Source of the DNA: a virus
Virus record (IMG/VR): IMGVR_UViG_3300023222_000334
Span: 1-33,259 of that record
Length of the DNA stretch: 33,259 nt
Direction: 5' to 3' (one strand)
The first letter of the stretch is position 1. Each line of letters starts with the position of its first letter. Of this stretch, positions 1 through 33,259 are shown one piece after another. A model generated the notes under the pieces. The model made no database searches and had not been told where the DNA came from. It worked only from the letters and a program-made list of their open reading frames with translations. The translations under genes and the position numbers were made by a program.

Positions 1-3000
1 AGCCTCGCTATCGAGCTGCAAACCCGTGGCATCTGCGTGAAGCACATTGTTATTGAATTTCAGCTGCGATTGACCACCAGAGAGCGACAGCAGTACGTTG
101 CTGCCTTCCTCAAAAACAAGCGGGTTTCCGTCTAGCTGGTGCACCCGCGACGCATCAAGCGTGAGGTCTGTATTCGCAAGATTGGTATTCGCACCCAGCT
201 CAATCCATGACGTATTGTCCGAACTCGCACCTATGTGGAGGAATATGGCGCTATCAACGCCGTCATCCCTTCGGTATGTGTCTCCCGGTGAAGCGGTCAC
301 TAGCCCTGTTGGATTCCGCGTCCCGACGAAAATGGCGACATTAGCGCCGTTTGTTCCAGTACTTTCCAAACCCAGTACCGCGGCTGTGTCAGCACTACTG
401 CGGATAACGGCCAATAGACTTGATGACTGTATCGTGAGTGCGTTGTTCGTGGTTAGATTTGAGGTGTTTGAGTCAATATCATATTCTAAAGTTAATCGAT
501 CAATCGATGAATCATCTTGGAGGACAAAGCTTCCAGTTCCGGTAGAACCCGTTGCAATCTCAAGTGTGTTCCCTGCTGTGTTTGTGCTTATCGTCCCGGT
601 TGCTGACTGGATAGCGTCGATATCGACACCGCCACCCCCACGCAACAGGACGTTGTTGGTCAACACGTCAGAGGTGGTCACGTTGCCGTCTGAGGTGATG
701 TCGGCCCATGAGGTATTGTCGGCCGATGCGCCCTTGTGAATGAACAGGTCGCTGCTCGTGCCGTTGCTTCGCACGTATGTGTCACCCGGGGATCCCGTCA
801 CTGCTCCGGTCGGGTCTTGGGTGCCGACGAAGGTTTCCGTTCGGGCCCCATTGGTGCCTGTGGTTTCCAAAGCCAATACCGGAACGGTATCTGCTAGCGT
901 GGATAGGACGTCGAGCAGAACTGTGGGTGTGGTATTACCTATCCCGAACATCGCACCGGGGATCGCATTAAAGAAAGTATCAGTCCCACTAGAGGAAATT
1001 TTTGCGTTTTCCGTACTCGAACTAGGTTCGAATAGTCGAATACTTTGATTTCCAGTTGAACCGCTATTAATGCCAAATCTATAAGTTGCTGAGCTGGTCC
1101 CATCGACCGGCAATCCTGTGAAATCCCAATTGATGGGGCCAGCTGTTCGGCTTGATCTCATTAATGAATTACCAACACTGTTGACACTGTGCTGGAAATC
1201 ACCTGCCGATCCTGTGTACCTCACGCTAGGTTCCGCGCTAGCTATCTCTAAATTGTCCGTAGGGCTTGACGTGCCGAGGCCCAGCGATCCACCAGTCGTA
1301 ATGTGAAACGCTGGATCTGCTGCCAATGACAAACCGGGATTTATCGAGAGGCCATCGCTCTCTGAATTGTCAACACCGAGTGTCCAGTCCTGTAGCCCCG
1401 TTAGTGTGAGGTGAATTAAGGCATCGCCCGCGCCGTCTTGCTCGATCGTGACACCGGTCTCTGATCCTGTGGTCGCTGTGTCCTCGAAAACATGAAAAGT
1501 GCTTTCAGCGTCAGCATTCTCCCCAATCCCCACAGCCACAAACCCACTATACCGGATAGACAGACCGCCAACGGCGCCGGCGTCCGTAAAATTCATATGG
1601 AATAGGCGCAGCGTGTCAACGTTATTGTTGCCGTTGAAGAGATGAAATTCAGACTGGTTGAACCCGGCGTCCGCTCGATTGAAAAAGAGGTCGGTTGAAT
1701 TGGTGTTGTCGTTATTGCCCTGCTCTAGGGTGACGTCTTTCGTGTCATAGAGAGCGACAACTGTGTTGAGGGTCGTGTCGATATCAAGACAGTGGTTTGC
1801 GCGAGGGGTTTTGTTTATGCCGACCTCGCCATCGACAGACAGCTGCAGTGTGGACGTCGCGTTCAGTCCAAGACCCACCCCTATGGCGAATTGATCGGCT
1901 ATGGCATTATCTACCCCCATCGTCCAATCTTGAAGCCCTGTCAACCTGAAATGCAGCAACGCATCGCCGGCGCCGTCTTGCTCCACAGTGACACCAGCAG
2001 CTTGGCCGGTTGACGCACTGTCTTCAAATACGTGAAGCGTGCTAAAGGGGGTGCCGGTGTTGACCCCTGTTAGCCCTGTGCTTGGAAGTAGCTCGAGATC
2101 GCCTGAACTGACCAGCCGCAGATCTCCAGAGACCGCAGTGATTGTCAGATCCTGATCGACCTCGGTATAGATGATCGACGCGCGATTAGCGCCTAGGCTG
2201 TCATTGAAGTTGATAGCTGGTGCGCCCGTGGTGTTCGCCGATGTGATGTTCAACAAGGCTTCTATCGCGAGCCCGACGTTGTACTCTTCAACGTCTCGAG
2301 TTGTCACATCGATGATATAGAGCTTCGAGCCATCGGGCTTGAACCGGAGACCTCGAGCCGTGGTCTTGCTCGCATCAAACGTGTTAACAAGTTCATCGGT
2401 AGAGACGAGCCATGGCGTCGCGAGGTTGAATTCTGTAATGATCCCCGTAATGCCCAGCACGTGCATGACCGTCCCGTCAGGCTTAAAACATGCGGCGGTC
2501 GCACTCGATACCGTAATCGTAGACGTCGTAGTGAAAGTGGCGCTCGAGATATCCCAATTCGTGGTCATGTCGTACTGTTCGACATTTTGATTAGAGAAAT
2601 CAGCAATGTAGAACGCTGCACCATCGGCTTTGAAGAACAGGCTATGCGGAAGTGCACCACCCCCGAGGCTCGCAGTGTTCACCGACTGCACGAAAGACGC
2701 CGTCGAGATGTCCCACGCCGTCGTCAGCGCGAACTCTTTCAGGATGTCCGTGGATGCATCGACCGTGAACATGATCAGACCGTTCGCTCTGAAAAACACA
2801 TCGAACACATTCGTCTGAGTGGGATCAAACGACTGCAAGAATACCGCGGTGGAGACATCCCACGAGAGGCCCACGTCGTATTCATAAACCGCGCCACCGG
2901 TCGCTATCCCTGTGACGTACATCTTGAGACCGTCATCTCTAAAGAACAGCCCGGTAGGGTTCCCGTCTTGAGTGGTGACGCTGAAATCTTGCTTGAAAAG

Positions 3001-4794
3001 GGATGCCGCCACGTGCCAATCGTCCGCGCTGCGCGTGGCCCCATGAGACTGCGTCGAGAGGTCGCTGAACTCGAGGAGCCCACTGACCGTGAGGCTATCT
3101 GCCGAGGCGCTATGCAGCTCCACGTCGGGGCCGTCGTGGACCTCGGCGACGAGGTAGGGTGTCCCTCCAATGTTCCCGAGCAGATCCATACTATCCGCTT
3201 GAAAACGGAAATCGATCGTTTGCCCAGGTCCCACGACGAAGGGTACGAATCCGAGAAAGAACTCCGTTGTGGTGTCGGTCCCCTTGGCGGAGAAGAAAAA
3301 AGTAGAGTCGCCGGCGAGGAGATCGAAGCCAGGGAGGGTGCCGTCAAAGGCCGCTTTGGACGGGACGTATCGAAGCACAATTCCCGTCGCCTGGTCCGTG
3401 ATCCGAGCGGTGAAATTCGTCATCGCACCATTCGCGCGAATCGTGATCTCGTCCAGCAAACGGAAATTGGGTGCGACGACGGTGGAGCTCAGCGAGAAGT
3501 CCAACGGGTTGGCGGTCAGTACTTGGGTATCATCTGTATTGATATTCAAAACTTCCGCGGCGCCGAAGTCGATGAACGTCGGCGTAGCGGATCCGACCGT
3601 ATCGTCGAAATCCGAATTGACAGAGAACGCCATCCCGTCCGCCACAAGATCGCCTACGACGAGATCGCTACCGCCTTCGGAGATTGACATCGCGTCGCCA
3701 AGGGTGACGGAGCCCGCCGGGACTACGATCGGGGTGTCAAAGATGATATTGAATCTGCCTGAATTGCCGATCTCTTCGAGAGTAATTCCCGACGCCCCGA
3801 ACACCCCTGCAGCTTCCCGCAATGGGATATCGGTCACCGGAACCGCGCTGAAATCTTCGCCGGTGCCGGGGATCCCGGTCACGGTCCCGAGGAAATCCAC
3901 ATCTCCAAAGGTGTTCGTACACTCCGTGACGGTGTCATAGATGGGGCCGTTGATCGTGCCGTTGTTGGTGACGGAGCCCGTGAGATCGGTGCTTTGAATA
4001 TTCAAAGTCCCGCCGACGTCCACCGTGATGTCGCCTTCAATCTTGCAATCGCTCAAGTTGAGCGTCGCCCCATCTCGCACAATGATATCGCCAAAAATAT
4101 CATTGATCTGCATCGACAGAATGCCGTCCACGACCTCAATCGCGACACTGGTAAGACCGCTCATCTCGATCGATCCCAGTCGGGCGGAGATCGCTCGATC
4201 GGAGATCGCGCTGCTATCACAGAGGAACCCGGTACAGTTCGGTCCCGTCATCGTGATCGAGCTTATCGCATACGTGTGCAAGGCTCCTGCGGGGACGTGG
4301 TTAACTCCGATACTCCCATCACCCGTCGCCGCGATGGCGTTCACATTGATCGCAGTGTTTGAAGACACACCCGTGTTTAATATGCCAACCTCGGAGTCCC
4401 CGTCCAAAGTGATCGTGTTAATCAACGCACTCAAACTCGAATTGGCGTTGGTGGAGTACGCGGTCGCGGAAGCGACACTCACATTGATGTCTGAGAATGA
4501 TGCCGAGCTCTCGGCACCCGCCGCTACCGCGACGCCACCCGTTCCCGAGATCGTGACGTTCGGCATCCCCACGAATACGCTATCGGGGATCGCGAAGTTC
4601 TCGTCGTAGGTGCTATTGCTCGGGTCGAGTATGGATACCGGGTCTGCAGGAATGGGGGTCAACGCGCTGGCTGTCGTGACCGCCTCTGCCAGTGTCAAGA
4701 GAGGGAAAATTAAACTCTCGCCCGTGGAGTCATCGTCCCCCACGTCCGATACGTAAACCTCTCTCGCGCCCGCAGGGATGAGTAGTACTGTCAT
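1..4794 (-). CDS. Giant multidomain tail fibre/spike protein (3' end outside window)
   Basis: The frame opens at ATG 4794 with upstream GTAGGAAAAAATCCC as ribosome site. I checked it codon by codon to base 1: no stop, so at least 1598 residues, C-terminus missing. Residues about 1-340 start with a YVSDVGDDD...PLLTLAEAV motif and then short repetitive beta strands rich in N, G, T and I, as in right-handed beta-helix phage spikes. Residues about 615-860 hold five units of 48-53 residues with F(K/R)xDGxxxY...WDIST, beta-propeller-like. Residues 919 and 1099 begin two near-copies of a xFHVFEDxAxTG...TGLQDWTxGVDN module; a TGTNGA...SPGDTYxR...DNTSW module occurs near 1311 and 1479. It follows baseplate and fibre genes, so a receptor-binding or depolymerising fibre is likely. 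No catalytic residues are assigned. Long plus-strand frames here are its shadows. Confidence 0.88.
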   Translation of the reverse strand, partial: MTVLLIPAGAREVYVSDVGDDDSTGESLIFPLLTLAEAVTTASALTPIPADPVSILDPSNSTYDENFAIPDSVFVGMPNVTISGTGGVAVAAGAESSASFSDINVSVASATAYSTNANSSLSALINTITLDGDSEVGILNTGVSSNTAINVNAIAATGDGSIGVNHVPAGALHTYAISSITMTGPNCTGFLCDSSAISDRAISARLGSIEMSGLTSVAIEVVDGILSMQINDIFGDIIVRDGATLNLSDCKIEGDITVDVGGTLNIQSTDLTGSVTNNGTINGPIYDTVTECTNTFGDVDFLGTVTGIPGTGEDFSAVPVTDIPLREAAGVFGASGITLEEIGNSGRFNIIFDTPIVVPAGSVTLGDAMSISEGGSDLVVGDLVADGMAFSVNSDFDDTVGSATPTFIDFGAAEVLNINTDDTQVLTANPLDFSLSSTVVAPNFRLLDEITIRANGAMTNFTARITDQATGIVLRYVPSKAAFDGTLPGFDLLAGDSTFFFSAKGTDTTTEFFLGFVPFVVGPGQTIDFRFQADSMDLLGNIGGTPYLVAEVHDGPDVELHSASADSLTVSGLLEFSDLSTQSHGATRSADDWHVAASLFKQDFSVTTQDGNPTGLFFRDDGLKMYVTGIATGGAVYEYDVGLSWDVSTAVFLQSFDPTQTNVFDVFFRANGLIMFTVDASTDILKEFALTTAWDISTASFVQSVNTASLGGGALPHSLFFKADGAAFYIADFSNQNVEQYDMTTNWDISSATFTTTSTITVSSATAACFKPDGTVMHVLGITGIITEFNLATPWLVSTDELVNTFDASKTTARGLRFKPDGSKLYIIDVTTRDVEEYNVGLAIEALLNITSANTTGAPAINFNDSLGANRASIIYTEVDQDLTITAVSGDLRLVSSGDLELLPSTGLTGVNTGTPFSTLHVFEDSASTGQAAGVTVEQDGAGDALLHFRLTGLQDWTMGVDNAIADQFAIGVGLGLNATSTLQLSVDGEVGINKTPRANHCLDIDTTLNTVVALYDTKDVTLEQGNNDNTNSTDLFFNRADAGFNQSEFHLFNGNNNVDTLRLFHMNFTDAGAVGGLSIRYSGFVAVGIGENADAESTFHVFEDTATTGSETGVTIEQDGAGDALIHLTLTGLQDWTLGVDNSESDGLSINPGLSLAADPAFHITTGGSLGLGTSSPTDNLEIASAEPSVRYTGSAGDFQHSVNSVGNSLMRSSRTAGPINWDFTGLPVDGTSSATYRFGINSGSTGNQSIRLFEPSSSTENAKISSSGTDTFFNAIPGAMFGIGNTTPTVLLDVLSTLADTVPVLALETTGTNGARTETFVGTQDPTGAVTGSPGDTYVRSNGTSSDLFIHKGASADNTSWADITSDGNVTTSDVLTNNVLLRGGGGVDIDAIQSATGTISTNTAGNTLEIATGSTGTGSFVLQDDSSIDRLTLEYDIDSNTSNLTTNNALTIQSSSLLAVIRSSADTAAVLGLESTGTNGANVAIFVGTRNPTGLVTASPGDTYRRDDGVDSAIFLHIGASSDNTSWIELGANTNLANTDLTLDASRVHQLDGNPLVFEEGSNVLLSLSGGQSQLKFNNNVLHADATGLQLDSEA

Positions 4795-20478: not shown

Positions 20479-21744
20479 CTAGTTAGCCTCGGGGTTGAAG
20501 TATGAATTCACTTTCTTTGAACCGACCTGGGGGGTGCCGAGGGTACCGGGGATGCGCGCGTCGAAGGCCATTTGAGGTCGGCGATTGGTGAAGTACGAAT
20601 CGATCGCTGTCACCTCATGGCCCTTCGGAGGATCCAAATCGAGTTTGTCGCAGGCATAGACCGCGAGTTCTTCCGCCGTCATCTTACTGTGATCGAAGGC
20701 GCCAATCGCGGGGGATACTTTCTCGTAAAGCGCGTCGCGGCTTTGCATCTCGCGAAAAAGGCTCTTGATGCCCGCCTTCTTGTGCGCGGCGAACTCCGTT
20801 TTGAGCTTACCCATGTCGCTGCGGATGGTCTTCAAAGCGGCGTCGGAGCCGGAAGACTTCTCTTTTTCCTCTTCCTCGTCTTCGCCCTTCTTCTCTTCTT
20901 TCTCTTCTTTCTCTTCGTCTTCGCCAATATTGCGATACTTGTGCTCGCCGTCCTCGCCCTTCTTTTCCTTCTCTTCTTCTTCGTCTTCGCCCTTCTTTTC
21001 CTCTTCCTCTTCGTCCTCGGATTTCTCCATCATGGTGTCCATCGCCGTTTGCATGGAAGACATGCTGTTCGCGAGGGCCAACACGATCTTGGGGAGTTCG
21101 AGCGAATCCTCACCCACCGCCAATAGTTCCTTGAGACTCGGAGCTTTCTTGTCTTTCTTCGCTTTGGCTTTAGGCATACGCTTGAAATCCTTACTGTCAA
21201 TCGTAAAGGTAAGATGATCTAGAACAGCGACTTCGGGACCCATCCGGCCCTCGTCCACACTCGCCAGATGATTACCGCGGATTTTGGTTTGCACAACCTG
21301 ATATTTTTGATCGCCAAAAATTCCCTCTTCGAGATGATACGCGCATTTGTACCCGCAACTCAACTCTGATTTGCCCGCTTCAATCGCATTGGCCAGATCC
21401 TCCGAGAAAAGTTTGATGTTCCCACGCAAAAAACCATCTTGGAAGTAGACATCTTGGCCAACGACACCCTTAACTCCCTTCTCATCGGCCGGTGTTAACC
21501 CCGCGTCCTCATTGCCTAAAAGCTCGTGGTCATCAATCCAAGGAAGGAGTTTGAACGACTCGATCGTCTCAGGGTCCGACAGTTCTTTCGCCGGACGATA
21601 GACCGAATAAATGCCTTTCGGGTCGAGACCCATTTCACCATTCGAATCGATCGAGGCGCCGGAGTACGAGAAGACACCCACCTTCGAAAGCGGGTTATCT
21701 TTGATCTCGTACCAATCATTTGAGTCGGGGACTCGTGCTGTCAT
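20479..21744 (-). CDS. DUF2213-like prohead protein with acidic repeats
   Basis: 421 residues from ATG 21744, in an ATGA overlap with the gene before and after AGAAGAGG; an upstream start at 21798 is less likely. The N-terminal 190 residues are the DUF2213 domain (YRPAKELSDPETIESFKLLPWIDDHELL, SELSCGYKCAYH), which may be a prohead-protease-like fold with His and Ser in catalytic positions; activity is inferred. Residues about 230-310 are a low-complexity E/K/D tract with KKGEDEEEEKEK repeated, then a coiled coil (DAALKTIRSDMGKLKTEFAAHKK), as in a scaffold. The C-terminus ends SKKVNSYFNPEAN. Confidence 0.87.
   Translation of the reverse strand: MTARVPDSNDWYEIKDNPLSKVGVFSYSGASIDSNGEMGLDPKGIYSVYRPAKELSDPETIESFKLLPWIDDHELLGNEDAGLTPADEKGVKGVVGQDVYFQDGFLRGNIKLFSEDLANAIEAGKSELSCGYKCAYHLEEGIFGDQKYQVVQTKIRGNHLASVDEGRMGPEVAVLDHLTFTIDSKDFKRMPKAKAKKDKKAPSLKELLAVGEDSLELPKIVLALANSMSSMQTAMDTMMEKSEDEEEEEKKGEDEEEEKEKKGEDGEHKYRNIGEDEEKEEKEEKKGEDEEEEKEKSSGSDAALKTIRSDMGKLKTEFAAHKKAGIKSLFREMQSRDALYEKVSPAIGAFDHSKMTAEELAVYACDKLDLDPPKGHEVTAIDSYFTNRRPQMAFDARIPGTLGTPQVGSKKVNSYFNPEAN
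20862..21029 (-). repeat. Polypurine low-complexity tract inside the DUF2213 gene
   Basis: On the coding strand about 170 bases are almost only G and A, made of degenerate GAAGAGAAAGAA and AAGGGCGAAGACGAAGAA units. They encode an E/K/D-rich tract interrupted once by HKYRNIG. Slippage-prone and capable of triplex formation. Confidence 0.8.
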
Positions 21745-22631
21745 GGCACCTCTTCTCCCTCGTCCAAGGAAATTACGGGAATCATTCGACATTTGCAATT
21801 CGGAAGTTGTGATGGCAACCCGGTCTCGCCTGTCTTCTCGTCAATGATCGGAGGATCTTTCAATTCGTAAATGCCCCCATTGAGGCCTGCGGGAAACTTA
21901 TCGATATGGAACTTTCTCGGCTTCTGCCCCCCGCCCGAATGCAACCACTCGAATTTAGATAGTCCCGCGCTTTCCATCCTCACTACGTTCAGTTTGTTGT
22001 ACGCTTTTCTCGTTTGATCGAGCGCCATGTTCTTTGCGTGGCGTTCGCCAACCCCTCTCTCTTTCATAAAAAACGGAACGAGATCTTGCATCCCATTGCC
22101 TGTGAAAATCGAATCAAATACGGCTTGACTGATTTTCGATAGTTGAGTGTCTGTCAGTTTCGTGATCAATCTGACGTTTTCGATAATCTCTACGTTTAGT
22201 TTATTTTGGATATCCTTACTGATCAAACTCGGCTTGAGGGTGACACCGCCGGATAGCTCCTTGAGAGACGTGGCGACATTGGCCTGACTGCTTTTGTTGG
22301 CGCCCGAGACCATTTTCTTCGCTGCCGTTTTGACACTTTTCTCCGCCGTCATAGTCAATTGCTTAGACAGACGGTCCAGTACCCCGCCAGCCTCTTCCGC
22401 AATTTCATACTTTTTCGCTAGCAGTTGTTCCTCACTGTACTGAGAAAGAAATTTCGTTACCTCTCGCTCCGTTCTCGTCATGTTCTTTTTAAGAATCTTC
22501 TTGACGTCGCGAGTGTACTTACGCTCTACAGTGACAGGGAAATTCAAAGCGCCCCCGCGCATTGTCGCAGTGGGCTTGGTCTGCTTAATCCACTTTTTCT
22601 TTTTCTTTGAAAGCTTGAGCCGTTTAGCCAT
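21741..22631 (-). CDS. Mu F-like minor head protein
   Basis: 296 residues, overlapping the portal stop by 8 bases. A very basic N-terminus (MAKRLKLSKKKKKWIKQ) and a long helical middle precede the signature region at about 190-285: GVGERHAKNMALDQTRKAYNKLNVVRME, then FEWLHSGGGQKPRKFH..D, a GG and PNCKCRMIPVI. This R...H...D...CxCR pattern defines the Phage_Mu_F family. It sits on or near the portal and is injected or cleaved in some phages. Confidence 0.92.
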   Translation of the reverse strand: MAKRLKLSKKKKKWIKQTKPTATMRGGALNFPVTVERKYTRDVKKILKKNMTRTEREVTKFLSQYSEEQLLAKKYEIAEEAGGVLDRLSKQLTMTAEKSVKTAAKKMVSGANKSSQANVATSLKELSGGVTLKPSLISKDIQNKLNVEIIENVRLITKLTDTQLSKISQAVFDSIFTGNGMQDLVPFFMKERGVGERHAKNMALDQTRKAYNKLNVVRMESAGLSKFEWLHSGGGQKPRKFHIDKFPAGLNGGIYELKDPPIIDEKTGETGLPSQLPNCKCRMIPVISLDEGEEVP

Positions 22632-24669
22632 GGGTGATTTGGCGTGATTCGTTACTCATGATCATGGTCGTGAGCGGGGTGTCCTTAAAAGCCTTTCGCG
22701 CTTTGCCCGGATCGTCCCGCAGAGGATCGTACTTGATTGTGATGTGAGGTTTGAATTCATCATAGGTGGACCTAGCCCCCATGGCTTCAAGTACCTTAAA
22801 CCGCTCGCGAAGCTTCGGGGACTCGACGAACATCACAAGCGCCGGCTTATCGTCCGGGCCCAATAGCCCGATCTCTCCTGTGAACTCGAGTTCATACTCT
22901 TCTCGGTCAGACACATATTCGGGTATCCCCTCTTCTGAATAGGCCAGCGTCACGTGCACATCGTCATAAGGGATTGCGTCTTCAATGCCGGCATCCATGA
23001 TCCATCGACAGAATTCGGCAGCGATAGCGCCACTCGGGGTGATGGAGACATAGCCGAGCATCCCCGCATCCGCTCCGGTATCGGGCTCTTCGTTGCCTTT
23101 CTCGAGCGCCGCGAGCTTCTCCAAACCTTCTAGCTCGTCGTCATCGTCCTCGAGATCTTCCTCAGAGTATTCATCAATGCCGGTGTAGCCCGATCCTGCA
23201 TCTTCGATAATCCGATTCCGCACGTCATTGCCATCAATGGCGCCCGAGGCCATCAAGGTTTGATCGGTCTGAGATTTCATCAAACCAATTTCGGCCGCTT
23301 CTTTCGCGGAGGGGGAGTCTGCAGGATTCCATACCGTCACTACTTTGAAAGGGGTCTCGGGTGCGATCTCGGATTTGATCACGAGCTCGTGGTGACGATC
23401 TACGACGAGACTCAAATCCGTTTGGATGCCCTCGAGCAAACCGATATATGTTTTCAGCTCGTGTTCTCCTGTGGCATTGAAACCCTTGGGGCTTGTGCCC
23501 AGGAGCTTTGTCGCCGGAATCTCGGACACCGCCGCGACGAGTTGATACTGAGACATGATCACGTCATCGAGATCGGCCAAAGAGGTATCAATCTGAGTCA
23601 ACTCGTCATCGAGGCCCTGAACGTACACACCGTAGTTATTTCGAAATTGAATCAGTTGATCGAGACGAGCCTGAAAACCCCCGGGCTGGGCTGTGACGGC
23701 TGCAATATCCACCTTGACGACGTTCAATCGTTTCGTTTCCGTGAGCATGGGCGCTTCATTGGCTACACGCTCCGCCGCATAGACGCGCTCATAGATCAAT
23801 TGGGTGAGCGGGATCCCGCCATACTGATAGGTCGGCTTCAAAATGTCTGGGGGATTGACGTAGCGACAGAGCACCAAATGAGATTTGTGATAGAGCTGCC
23901 CGCTAATGGTCCACCACGTGGGCTCGTAGAAGTCCATCGCCGCCGGGTTCGCGACCGATTGCTCGTCCAGAATCGGCGCCACCCAACTCGGATCGACTTG
24001 CGTCATGCCCTTATAGGAATCTTTGGTGATGCCATCGATATTGAACGGTTTCCGGTAGTACTCGGGATCGTCAGACTCGACGACAAAGAGGATAAAACGA
24101 AATCCGAAACGACGCTTATTGGTCTCGAACTCGATGAGATTTTCTTCGAGTTTATATTCCTTATCCGCTTCTCGCAGGGCAGACATGTACTTGAGGTCGA
24201 GTTCTTCCCCATCATCGGTGGCGATCTCAAAACCGTTTCGAACGGCATCTTTTGCCGGAATGGTCAACGTCTTATTGATCAACCAATGCTGGCTGATGAT
24301 CGCGCACGCCTGATAGCCGATGAAGCTTTGCGTCATGTACCAGTTGAATACTGCGTCAGGAATGATCCCTTGATTGAGACTAAACGCGCTTTTCAACTGC
24401 GTCGAATCCATACCGTAACTTTGGATGGCTTCATCTACTGTAAGCGTTTCGCCCTCGCCTTTTTTCGTGGGGATTTGGGTAAAAGCCTCCGGGCCCGGGA
24501 GTGCGATCGGCGCAGAGGAGTGACCCCCGGGCAACACATTATTGCGATGCGTCGAGAACAGTACGGGGCCGTTCTCATCGAAAAAGCTTTGCCGCTCGGG
24601 CTCCTGTGAACTGGAGTCCACAACCTCGGGCACCTTCTTTTTCCAAAACTTCAACCATTCAAGCGACAT
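22624..24669 (-). CDS. Portal protein (DUF1073-type) with C-terminal Acb1-like 2H phosphoesterase domain
   Basis: 681 residues from ATG 24669 (GTG at 24672 is possible), right after the terminase stop. Residues about 95-490 are the portal: WYMTQSFIGYQACAIISQHWLINKTLTIPAKDAVRNGFEI, LLGTSPKGFNATGEHELKTYI and the C-terminal helical crown. An acidic linker (EEDLEDDDDELEGLE) follows. Residues about 542-681 (bases 22627-23046) form a separate domain with two HxTx motifs, HVTLAY at about 572 and HITIKY at about 642, 70 residues apart. This is the catalytic layout of 2H phosphoesterases and of the T4 anti-CBASS nuclease Acb1, whose histidines are spaced alike. Portal-Acb1 fusions are known in this family. 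The enzyme would destroy cyclic nucleotide signals of CBASS. Other 2H activities cannot be excluded. Confidence 0.9.
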   Translation of the reverse strand: MSLEWLKFWKKKVPEVVDSSSQEPERQSFFDENGPVLFSTHRNNVLPGGHSSAPIALPGPEAFTQIPTKKGEGETLTVDEAIQSYGMDSTQLKSAFSLNQGIIPDAVFNWYMTQSFIGYQACAIISQHWLINKTLTIPAKDAVRNGFEIATDDGEELDLKYMSALREADKEYKLEENLIEFETNKRRFGFRFILFVVESDDPEYYRKPFNIDGITKDSYKGMTQVDPSWVAPILDEQSVANPAAMDFYEPTWWTISGQLYHKSHLVLCRYVNPPDILKPTYQYGGIPLTQLIYERVYAAERVANEAPMLTETKRLNVVKVDIAAVTAQPGGFQARLDQLIQFRNNYGVYVQGLDDELTQIDTSLADLDDVIMSQYQLVAAVSEIPATKLLGTSPKGFNATGEHELKTYIGLLEGIQTDLSLVVDRHHELVIKSEIAPETPFKVVTVWNPADSPSAKEAAEIGLMKSQTDQTLMASGAIDGNDVRNRIIEDAGSGYTGIDEYSEEDLEDDDDELEGLEKLAALEKGNEEPDTGADAGMLGYVSITPSGAIAAEFCRWIMDAGIEDAIPYDDVHVTLAYSEEGIPEYVSDREEYELEFTGEIGLLGPDDKPALVMFVESPKLRERFKVLEAMGARSTYDEFKPHITIKYDPLRDDPGKARKAFKDTPLTTMIMSNESRQITHG

Positions 24670-24674
24670 CACAT

Positions 24675-28764: not shown

Positions 28765-31182
28765 CTATTCGGCGTCTGCGAGGGCATCCCTCACAAATTG
28801 GATAAAGGACTCTCGCAACCCTGTTAGATTCATGTCGGAGATCGATTCGCACAATTCTTTCTGTGCGGGGGTCTTTCGTTCTGCGCTCCACGCATCCTGA
28901 ATCGCGTCGCCATCAGGGCCACTGATGGCGCGGAGTCGGTATTGCTTGTCGCCAAACCGATGTCTCCATGGCGTACCGTCATGGCCGCGGATCTCTTCAG
29001 CGCGGTTGCGCAGCTCGCGCTTGACGGGTCGCTCCCAATTGCGAATCGTGTCTAGCCCCAAGGGGAGAGCCAATTTCTCGAGACATCCGAGAAACTCATT
29101 GATGAAGACAACGCCGTGAGTTTGCTCCCGGGCAAAAGCGAGACAAAGCCCGATCGCGCCATCGACTCCGCGCCCACTGCCGAGTGCCCACACTGCGTTA
29201 TCTCGCGTGTCCTGAACCTCTTGGCGTGCGAACGGGGCCATGTTGCCGAGATCGCGGGCGAGGAGCCAGCGCCAGACATCCGCTTCCATCCCCGATTCGA
29301 TCCAGCCGTACAACTCCTCGAATTTCTTCGGCGACCAAATGTGAGTCGTGTTGCGCAATCGACGAAATCGTGTATTCGCCGTATCCATCGGCAACACATC
29401 TAAATGTTGACTACACAGAATCGTAGACCCGTAACAGAGAACCAATCGATTGACGAGGTACTTGATTTTGAGTTCAAGAGGAGAGGGAGCAGTATCGACG
29501 AAATTCTTGGAGGACTCGTAGGCCGTGAATTCCATTCGCGCGCTCATGTTGGTTTCTTTCGCTTCGGGAATGAACACCCAATCGGCTAGAATCCAACCGT
29601 TGTAATTGGCTGAGGTACACCCTTCAAGGAAGTTAGAGAGTGAAACCGAGGTCACATTGTGCCAGCTCCATAACCTCGCTAAAATGGTTTGCAATGTCCC
29701 GCGCCCCGACCCTTCGATTGGCGTCGTCATGATGACACCGGGACCCCGATACTTTGGGTTCTGGGCTTTGCTGGCAAGATGATCGAGAAACCATTCTGCG
29801 TCTTCAGGGTCAGGAATCAGATAGCGAATGAACTCGAGAAAGGGTGCGACGCGACCCCGATCAAAGTGCCCTACCCCCCACTTTGGAAGATTCCAACTAT
29901 TGAGAGAAGGATACCCACCCCCGAAATTATGAATCACTTCCGGGCCTCCTACCTCATGTAGCCTTCCCGCAAATCGCATTCGGTCGGGGTCTCTACCCCA
30001 AGCGGTACATTCGTTCACTCCCTTAAATGTGCCGTCCGCTGCGGGAATCCACACCAACCCGGCGAGTTGATTTTTGAATCCGGTAAACGGAAAGGCTTTG
30101 AAATCGGGGGACTTCATATCAATGACCTGATTGTTCTCCATATCGAAGGCATAGCGCGAAACGAATTGTTCAATCTGCCCGTTCTGCCCCGCCTTGGGTC
30201 CATCCTCTTCGACCACCCACAAGAGAAAATCGCGCGTGTTCTTGTCATTGCAGCCATCGTGAAAGCAATGAAAGCCGCGGGTCGTGGGACGCGAGCCCAT
30301 GCCGAGAGGCGTGTACCCCGCGCTATTCTCCCCGGTCGTGTGCGCGCTTGCCCAAGGGCAGAGAATCGTGATCCACTCCCCCGTTTCTGTGATGATCTGA
30401 TCCTCGCGCTGCAGCCACTCGAGAACGGGGTCAATAATCCCGTCGAGGTTCATTTGGTAAGGGATGTGGGTCCGGTACTCGCTGGTCCCCGCGCGTCGGG
30501 ATTTGGGTCGCGCGCCGGCGACGAGAGCATCCCAGGTCGTCTCGATCTCGGCTTGTCTCATGAGGAGTTCCGGGGACCAATGGTGCCCCAACATCTGTTC
30601 GAAACGACATTCGAAAGGATTCCCCTCGGCGTCCTGGTACTTCTCCTTGAGATTCACGCCACAGGGCAACCGCACGAGCTTGTTGGGCATGCACCCCCCG
30701 CGATCGACGCCGAGTTTCTGTATCAGAAGCCTCTGAAAGGCTTTGGCAAGCTCGAGATCGCGAATCGGTTCGTCTAGGCTGTAGCCATATTGAAAGTTGT
30801 CTGGCGACGTCTCTATGATGTAGGAAGGATTTTTGCGATACGCCTCGGGTAGCGCTTCCTTTGCGAGCTTGCTCCCGGGCCCCGACCCCACGTCATCGAG
30901 CACCAACACGTGAAAGCCCGTGAACTGGCTCTGGCGGTTGTAGAGGTTCCCTTTCGGGTCGACCGCCATGGTCGAGCACCCCATGTAACAGGCCTGAGGG
31001 CGCCCCGCACGCAGATACGCTTTCCCCCAACCCTCTTCTTTCGTAGGGAAACCGGGCACTTGGCGTGAGGTCGACCAAAGACAGATCTCTTCGTCGTCCA
31101 GTTGCGCATGGAAGACGAAATCGAGGAACTCTTGGGCTGTTTTGAGTTGATTTTCTTTGGGGGAGGTCTTATGATCGGTCAC
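28765..31182 (-). CDS. Primase-helicase (AEP-like primase, zinc motif, D5/DUF5906-like ATPase)
   Basis: 805 residues, GTG 31182 with AAAAAGGAT upstream. Residues about 88-180 look like an archaeo-eukaryotic-type primase core (FHVLVLDDVG, PSYIIETSPDNFQYGYSLDEP, GVDRGGCMPNKLVRLP). Residues 275-320 hold a Cys/His cluster (CPWASAH...HCFHDGC...RDFLLW) common between primase and helicase parts. Residues 455-620 form the ATPase: GVIMTTPIEGSGRGTLQTIL as Walker A, with arginine where lysine is expected, and ADWVFIPEAKE as Walker B, then VLCYGSTILCSQHLDVLPMD...RFRRL. It would prime and unwind the phage genome. The palindrome array begins right after its stop. Confidence 0.9.
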   Translation of the reverse strand: MTDHKTSPKENQLKTAQEFLDFVFHAQLDDEEICLWSTSRQVPGFPTKEEGWGKAYLRAGRPQACYMGCSTMAVDPKGNLYNRQSQFTGFHVLVLDDVGSGPGSKLAKEALPEAYRKNPSYIIETSPDNFQYGYSLDEPIRDLELAKAFQRLLIQKLGVDRGGCMPNKLVRLPCGVNLKEKYQDAEGNPFECRFEQMLGHHWSPELLMRQAEIETTWDALVAGARPKSRRAGTSEYRTHIPYQMNLDGIIDPVLEWLQREDQIITETGEWITILCPWASAHTTGENSAGYTPLGMGSRPTTRGFHCFHDGCNDKNTRDFLLWVVEEDGPKAGQNGQIEQFVSRYAFDMENNQVIDMKSPDFKAFPFTGFKNQLAGLVWIPAADGTFKGVNECTAWGRDPDRMRFAGRLHEVGGPEVIHNFGGGYPSLNSWNLPKWGVGHFDRGRVAPFLEFIRYLIPDPEDAEWFLDHLASKAQNPKYRGPGVIMTTPIEGSGRGTLQTILARLWSWHNVTSVSLSNFLEGCTSANYNGWILADWVFIPEAKETNMSARMEFTAYESSKNFVDTAPSPLELKIKYLVNRLVLCYGSTILCSQHLDVLPMDTANTRFRRLRNTTHIWSPKKFEELYGWIESGMEADVWRWLLARDLGNMAPFARQEVQDTRDNAVWALGSGRGVDGAIGLCLAFAREQTHGVVFINEFLGCLEKLALPLGLDTIRNWERPVKRELRNRAEEIRGHDGTPWRHRFGDKQYRLRAISGPDGDAIQDAWSAERKTPAQKELCESISDMNLTGLRESFIQFVRDALADAE

Positions 31183-31891: not shown

Positions 31892-31931
31892 ATCATCCTT
31901 CCGGAAAATCATCGGCTTGCCCCACACTTTC
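31892..31931 (-). repeat. Helicase 3' end, original copy of duplicated segment
   Basis: The last 13 codons of the helicase including its TGA. 36 of 40 bases recur at 31538-31577, on the other side of the small gene. Confidence 0.85.
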
Positions 31932-33259
31932 GGGCCCCAGATGCTTCAAAAATAATTCGTGATGATCGCCCTTTCCTTGGCAGACAGCCCACTTCACCTC
32001 ATCGATCGTGCCACGGGTCATCAGCACCTCGATCGTCACCGGGTTCTCTTGTCCGCGCCGCCAGAGGCGTCCTATCGTCTGTTCGTAGCGGTCGCGGCTC
32101 CAGATGGGGTTAATCCAAATTTGCCTCGAGCAGGAGTCCTGTAGCCCGTCGACGCCATGCCCGCCGCTTGCGGGATGGAGCAAGAGAACCTGCGCCCCAC
32201 CCTTGCTTTTCCACTCTTCCATCACGGCATCGACATCGGCGCCGCCCGAGATTTCGAGCGCATCAGGGAACTCTTCGCGTAACCATTCAAGGTCGGCTTG
32301 GAACCAATAAACGACAATGACGGACTCTCTTGCAGCTCTGAGTTCATTGACCCGTGTGACAGTCCAGTCCATTTTGACGCAGTGCAATAATATTGTGGTG
32401 TCGATCGCGGTTTCATTTTCGGTATAAACAGCACCATCGGGGGTCAATTGGTATTTGCCCGATAGATGCCCCGCTTCTTCTCTGAAATAGAGGAAACCAT
32501 TCGCCATTTGTTCGAGTTTCCCTGAGAGCACCGCGCGGTTAGAAGCTTCGATCAATTGATTAGCCATGAGTCTCACCACCGCGTGCCGGCGCATCTCATG
32601 GTAAAGATCCATCGTTCCACGGGGAACGTCGAGGTACACGAGCTCGACATTCAACTCTGGCAACTCGTCCTTGTAGTCGGGCATCACATGCACGAGGTCG
32701 CGAATCTTGTTCGCAATACGGACGTCGCGCCCGGGGAGCAGCGCCCAGTCGTACTGGTTCCAATCGGTCGGATAGAAATATGTCCGTTTGAATTGGTCAA
32801 AGGTCCGGCCAAAGCGTCTTCCAAGGTCGAGCAACTGGACTTGCCCGAAAAGCCCGAGCCAGTCCTCGCCTACGGGCTGCGCCGTCATGCCGACGCGCCA
32901 TTTGAAATGCTGCATCTGGTGGCGGAGCTTCTTAAATCGCGCCCCACCCGTCTCGCTCCATTTGCTCGTCTCGTCGATGCAGATGCCGTCGAAGGATAAC
33001 CCCCCATTGCGAGCCAGATCGCAGAGATTGTAATTTTCGAGCAGCCATGGGACGTTTTCTTCGTTGATCACGACAATATTCGCGGAGGATAGAAGCGCGT
33101 TTTCGCGCTCTTCAGGATCGCCCACAGCAAGCGCAATTTCGAGATGCGCTAAATGGACCCATTTCTCGTGCTCCGTCACCCACGCGGTCTGACAGACCTT
33201 CAAAGGGGCGATCACGAGGATTCGACGGAGAGGATTGGGCCCCAGTTCCCACAGTATAT
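31893..33259 (-). CDS. SNF2-type DNA helicase (5' end outside window)
   Basis: The frame stays open through base 33259, so the N-terminus with Walker A lies beyond the window; 455 codons are visible. ILVIAPLKVCQTAWVTEHEKW is motif Ia. FDGICIDETSKWSE is the DExx box (DETS), RVGMTAQPV is motif III, and VIVVYWFQADLEWL starts the second lobe. LLLHPASGGHGVDGLQDSCSRQIWINPIWSRDRYEQTIGRLWRRGQ holds motifs V and VI with the arginine finger. This is a phage SNF2/DEAD-like helicase used in replication or recombination. GTG 33215 is an internal codon, not the start. The gene ends in ESVGQADDFPEG. Confidence 0.93.
   Translation of the reverse strand, partial: ILWELGPNPLRRILVIAPLKVCQTAWVTEHEKWVHLAHLEIALAVGDPEERENALLSSANIVVINEENVPWLLENYNLCDLARNGGLSFDGICIDETSKWSETGGARFKKLRHQMQHFKWRVGMTAQPVGEDWLGLFGQVQLLDLGRRFGRTFDQFKRTYFYPTDWNQYDWALLPGRDVRIANKIRDLVHVMPDYKDELPELNVELVYLDVPRGTMDLYHEMRRHAVVRLMANQLIEASNRAVLSGKLEQMANGFLYFREEAGHLSGKYQLTPDGAVYTENETAIDTTILLHCVKMDWTVTRVNELRAARESVIVVYWFQADLEWLREEFPDALEISGGADVDAVMEEWKSKGGAQVLLLHPASGGHGVDGLQDSCSRQIWINPIWSRDRYEQTIGRLWRRGQENPVTIEVLMTRGTIDEVKWAVCQGKGDHHELFLKHLGPESVGQADDFPEG

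Follow-up and report, generated by a model that had tools for sequence, protein, structure and literature searches.

Acb1 of phages T4 and FBB1 (gp57B; structures 7t26 and 7t27; PF23474) is a free-standing protein with a 2H fold. In T4 Acb1, H44, T46, H113 and T115 are catalytic, Y12, W74, F107 and W147 provide base stacking, adenine is contacted by E141, and residues 145-152 make up a lid; moreover, Hobbs et al. reported that substituting the nucleotide-coordinating residues disrupts the protein (PMC9117128). Fusions of portal or MuF proteins to 2H domains, a type that the original prediction had rightly held to be known and that is widespread, were put forward in 2022 as packaged, injected anti-immune effectors against SMODS (CBASS) (PMC9503650). 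Both the architecture and the proposed anti-signalling role, packaging and injection included, were stated in that paper, and in both respects its fusions are like the one analysed here. The passages of that paper that deal with these fusions hold no residue-level, mobility or lid analysis; the present work adds a residue-level check, a lid-less clade, a pair of contigs that differ cleanly by gain or loss of the domain, transfer of the module from one portal to another, and a wider partner list. In phage P1, the Dar proteins (DarA, DdrB and others) provide counter-defence via proteins packaged in the head, and counter type I restriction. As for portals, the C-terminal barrel of homologous portals points into the head (E217, PMC10329688); the extension of the E217 portal was not built in the cryo-EM model (PMC10329688) and that of the Pa193 portal gave no density after residue 528 (PMC11042391).

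The sequence studied is an IMG/VR virus record of 33,259 bases, referred to here in its entirety as the window. Profile matches of the minus-strand genes revealed an order like that of myoviruses, i.e. the small and large terminase subunits, portal, MuF-like protein, DUF2213 head protease, cement protein and major capsid protein, followed by neck, DUF3383/sheath, tape measure, baseplate and fibre genes. The features at and next to the portal are:

22624..24672, minus strand: portal-Acb1 fusion gene, starting with GTG at 24672 or, more likely, with ATG at 24669
23260..24315, minus strand: portal core, residues 120-471 (Phage_portal_3, PF06381; E=2.4e-78)
23062..23160, minus strand: acidic linker, residues 505-537, predicted to be disordered (full-length model, pLDDT under 50)
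22627..23064, minus strand: Acb1-family 2H phosphoesterase domain, residues 537-682 (Pfam, phmmer, AF2 and Foldseek)
22939..22956, minus strand: first catalytic motif, HVTLAY, with H573 and T575 (T4 H44 and T46); H invariant in 125/125
22729..22746, minus strand: second catalytic motif, HITIKY, with H643 and T645 (T4 H113 and T115); H invariant in 125/125
21741..22631, minus strand: MuF-like head morphogenesis protein, downstream of the portal (phrog_324, E=4e-55)
20479..21798, minus strand: predicted DUF2213 head maturation protease (phrog_3778, E=5.3e-115; PF09979, E=4.4e-38)

The portal ORF comprises 682 codons from GTG and, with ATG as the second codon, would encode 681 amino acids. Its product belongs to PF06381 (263.8 bits; cut-off 33.8), matches phrog_4660 (E=3.9e-159), and is encoded between the terminase and MuF-like genes. 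The nearest portal cores in the PDB are the E217/Pa193 homologues (E about 1e-130), and, as in gp19 of E217, Pa193 and KPP12 (Pbunavirus), a long extension follows the barrel. Because the homologous portals 9b41, 8fvh and 8hds have 12 chains each, we infer 12 copies for the window portal by analogy. The start of the MuF-like gene overlaps the 3' end of the portal gene by 8 bases; the match of its product to PF04233 (2.8e-5) is under the cut-off. The predicted protease contains a Glu/Lys-rich stretch. The acidic linker (SEEDLEDDDDELEGLEKL...) had a pLDDT below 50 in the full-length model while the Acb1-like domain was mostly near 90 or above; the domain is thus predicted to form a separate unit that is flexibly tethered to the portal.

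The C-terminal domain has a length of about 142 residues. It matches PF23474 (Acb1) over residues 541-654 (22711-23052) and continues to the stop. The match had E=3.8e-20 and 72.5 bits for the whole protein, and E=2.1e-21 and 76.6 bits for the domain alone (cut-off 27); RNA-ligase2/LigT families also match the domain in Pfam, more weakly than Acb1. By phmmer, the domain matched the Acb1 crystal structure 7t26 with E=1.2e-7. An AF2 model of the domain, based on a 64-sequence alignment, adopted the 2H fold with a mean pLDDT of 95.2 and a pTM of 0.88. The five best Foldseek matches in the PDB were all phage Acb1-family enzymes (7t26, 9q2g, 7t27 and both 9q2y chains; E 2e-8 to 1e-7, TM 0.70-0.80) while Usb1, LigT and other 2H enzymes ranked below them (E above 1e-4), and a structure search of a viral library returned many matches named Acb1. 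In total, sequence and predicted structure identify the domain as an Acb1-family (PF23474) 2H domain, and the resemblance goes well beyond a chance occurrence of two motifs. We file the domain under the family rather than as a proven anti-CBASS enzyme. The original prediction had described a portal protein in which an acidic linker precedes an Acb1-like 2H domain at 22624-23046, with two HxTx motifs 70 residues apart at nearly the T4 spacing, and had proposed structure prediction against Acb1 as a check; all of this holds, the coordinates to within a few residues.

The spacing between the two histidines is 70 residues in the window domain and 69 in T4 Acb1 (H44/H113). Among the 125 distinct related domains collected, the positions equivalent to T4 44 and 113 are H throughout, and at the equivalents of 46 and 115 every domain has T or S. 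At the base-stacking positions, the alignment shows that the window domain keeps Y12 and has an aromatic residue (Y) at F107, whereas W74 is replaced by L; position 74 is rarely W in other family members too. Similarly, the adenine-contacting E141 aligns with Q, at a position that also varies in other members. The C-terminal lid with W147 is missing; the window protein ends before it. The lid is likewise missing in L002-L004 and in the Vibrio phage portal L010, while W147 is kept in 61 of 82 Pam3-type portal domains. Thus, the window domain differs from T4 Acb1 in lacking the lid and in these substitutions as well as in sitting on a portal.

The Pam3 portal (8hds) and similar prophage portals, e.g. 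those of L104, L111, Synechococcus phage Yong-M2-251 and Pseudomonas phage psageK9, share the layout of the window protein, i.e. a PF06381-type portal with a C-terminal Acb1-like domain. However, the portal part of Pam3-type proteins is only about 27% identical to that of the window, and their domains belong to another clade that mostly keeps W147. By phmmer, the PDB contains the sequence of a Pam3 portal whose tail is Acb1-like; since 8hds was not among the Foldseek matches in the PDB, the domain may be absent from the structure model.

Because the HxT motifs are intact while the lid and E141 are altered, catalysis is expected and the choice of substrate is less certain. Judged from sequence and model, the domain is very probably enzymatically active. 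By kinship, the foremost candidate substrates are cyclic di- or trinucleotides of the CBASS type, and we give a CBASS-type substrate an even chance; the absence of the lid (W147) from the window clade and its Q in place of E141 leave such substrates plausible rather than proven, the missing lid being the main reason for doubt.

Our preferred, still tentative, reading is a portal with a tethered anti-defence 2H phosphodiesterase that acts chiefly as newly made protein on an alarm nucleotide. A normal portal subunit would bear, on a flexible linker at the end facing the head interior, an Acb1-family 2H phosphodiesterase that is a mobile module with intact catalytic residues. The fusion would be made with the late head genes and be active as portal builds up in the infected cell, where the most likely target of the enzyme would be a cyclic oligonucleotide that serves CBASS, or a system related to it, as alarm signal. 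Degradation would follow the metal-free chemistry of Acb1, in which a 2'-OH attacks the 3'-5' bond. The 12 copies per head would be a by-product or have a second, conjectural role. For newly made portal to act inside the infected cell, no extra step is required, and we consider it somewhat probable that the newly made protein is the acting form; action by injected protein is doubtful.

After loss of the lid, the domain might instead be a 2H phosphodiesterase with another substrate, e.g. a cyclic ADPr phosphate, some other immune nucleotide or, in the repair of RNA or tRNA, RNA 2',3'-cyclic phosphate. This is suggested by the non-conserved lid and E141 of the window clade together with the weaker RNA-ligase2/LigT family and Usb1/LigT fold matches, and the roles listed for 2H domains in PMC9503650 include action on RNA ends and on cyclic phosphates of ADPr. 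Nevertheless, we regard this alternative as rather unlikely: Acb1 is nearest in both sequence and fold, well ahead of LigT and Usb1; no RNA ligase or end-healing partner was found among the window ORFs scanned, and RNA repair alongside a ligase was set aside for that reason; and RNA repair offers no evident reason for a location on the portal.

In a partner survey, which was a sample and not exhaustive, Acb1-family domains were fused to the following proteins:

Portals of family PF06381
Portals of family PF04860: L162 and L216
Portal plus MuF: L210 and L213
MuF: L211, in a frame that ends at the contig edge
XkdF-like Peptidase_S78_2 behind the Acb1 domain, over the cut-off: L207:2887-3795, L212:2641-3828 and L223:3-1268
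XkdF-like Peptidase_S78_2 behind the Acb1 domain, weak match: L204:2716-4134
DarA_N/DarA_C protein, a Dar-like head protein, with a C-terminal Acb1 domain: L190:583-3978
LPD38 polyvalent proteins: L214 and L218
Methyltransferase polyvalent protein: L206
Portal and PBECR3, a predicted nuclease domain, in a portal-Acb1-PBECR3 triple fusion: L102:1603-3996

All identified partners in this sample are head-assembly or presumed head-internal proteins, and no tail, shell or lysis protein was among them. This supports the idea that the domain is a packaged effector, freed from the portal, e.g. when the prohead protease cuts the linker, and then injected together with the DNA so as to pre-arm the cell against cyclic-nucleotide defence before phage gene expression. 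Moreover, the window codes for a predicted head protease, which is only a candidate for cutting the linker, and PMC9503650 proposed this role for portal/MuF-2H fusions. The fusion in L190 joins an Acb1-family domain to DarA; by contrast with the P1 Dar proteins, the window domain is portal-borne and its ejection conjectural. The portal is a virion protein by homology. Because its ring remains with the head, delivery of the domain into the host is unproven and would require a cut in the tether, and cleavage itself is conjectural; furthermore, the linkers of relatives differ in length and sequence, and the partner list comes from a sample. Altogether, we consider a packaged effector unlikely.

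Among the 80 IMG/VR loci closest to the window portal, several of which duplicate one another, 68 end 11-56 residues past the core, nine carry Acb1 and three have another extension of 105-116 residues; because the query contained the domain, this ranking favours Acb1 carriers. The other extension was seen in the window-type portals of L026, L094 and L098, and those of L026 and L094 have in common a motif like NGAQVSSMV.

L007 and L009 are 84% identical in DNA over the portal gene and 86% over the MuF gene; at the domain site, L009 has about 455 extra bases, which encode the domain, and L007 has 4, a clean presence/absence. Conversely, L009, with a window-type core and a lidded domain, and L102, with a Pam3-type core, have domains that are 77% identical on portals that are 26% identical, and in L126 and L127 the domains are 96% identical (dS 0.05) and the portals 59%. 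In the domain tree, which is based on a short domain and has some long branches, window-type portals required four label changes, of which well-supported branches force three, and the hypothesis that their domains have a single origin was rejected (p-AU 6.9e-5). In close pairs of portal-borne domains, dN was well below dS and no usable pair had a ratio above 1; only close pairs were used because saturated dS distorts the all-pair median. We conclude that the Acb1-like domain is a mobile module and not a structural need of the portal, and that related portal-borne domains are under purifying selection.

It is conceivable, but quite unlikely, that a mobile Acb1-family cassette repeatedly docks on head proteins so that virions are pre-loaded, with the enzyme freed by the prohead protease and the lid-less clade shifted to another immune nucleotide. 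Finally, although the domain is borne by an essential virion protein, a structural role, with the domain as a portal extension whose catalysis is of no account and which helps in assembly, packaging or DNA organisation, is highly improbable given the invariant catalytic residues, the disordered linker, the clean indel between the closely related head modules of L007 and L009, the portal-independent transfer, and the portal of Pbunavirus KPP12 (L019:1806-4103), in which an unrelated InPase (PF18823) takes the C-terminal slot held by Acb1 in the window.

Should the tethered phosphodiesterase be active, an enzyme of the anti-CBASS type would sit on a part that no virion can do without. It could then be tested directly whether counter-defence enzymes are loaded into the head in advance, as with the Dar proteins of P1, or are expressed only late; the L007/L009 pair and the lid-less and lidded clades are ready natural controls. 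The survey indicates that viral contigs commonly encode portal-Acb1 fusions; therefore, the family reaches wider than free T4-type genes. In a search of genome contigs, the only free-standing relative was L200, and only 3 of the 199 genomes of the family considered for CBASS co-occurrence passed the Acb1 cut-off, too small a number for such a comparison.

A PADLOC scan gave no match, as expected since the PADLOC library covers defence only. Elsewhere in the window, the plus-strand ORFs at the left end (98-739, 2461-3687 and 4025-4609) had no PHROG match and may or may not be genes. A large protein encoded at 28765-31182 on the minus strand has a RepB-primase-like N-terminal domain (PF16793, E=2.4e-8), and its gene adjoins that of a phrog_62 helicase (31893-33215).

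Many portal-Acb1 fusion proteins are annotated merely as portal or 'RNA ligase'. The PHROG of Acb1 relatives, phrog_755, bears the name 'RNA ligase', and gp129 of phage DSS3P8 (L012:2486-2938), a free Acb1-family protein, is labelled 'prohead protease'; both are probably misannotations.
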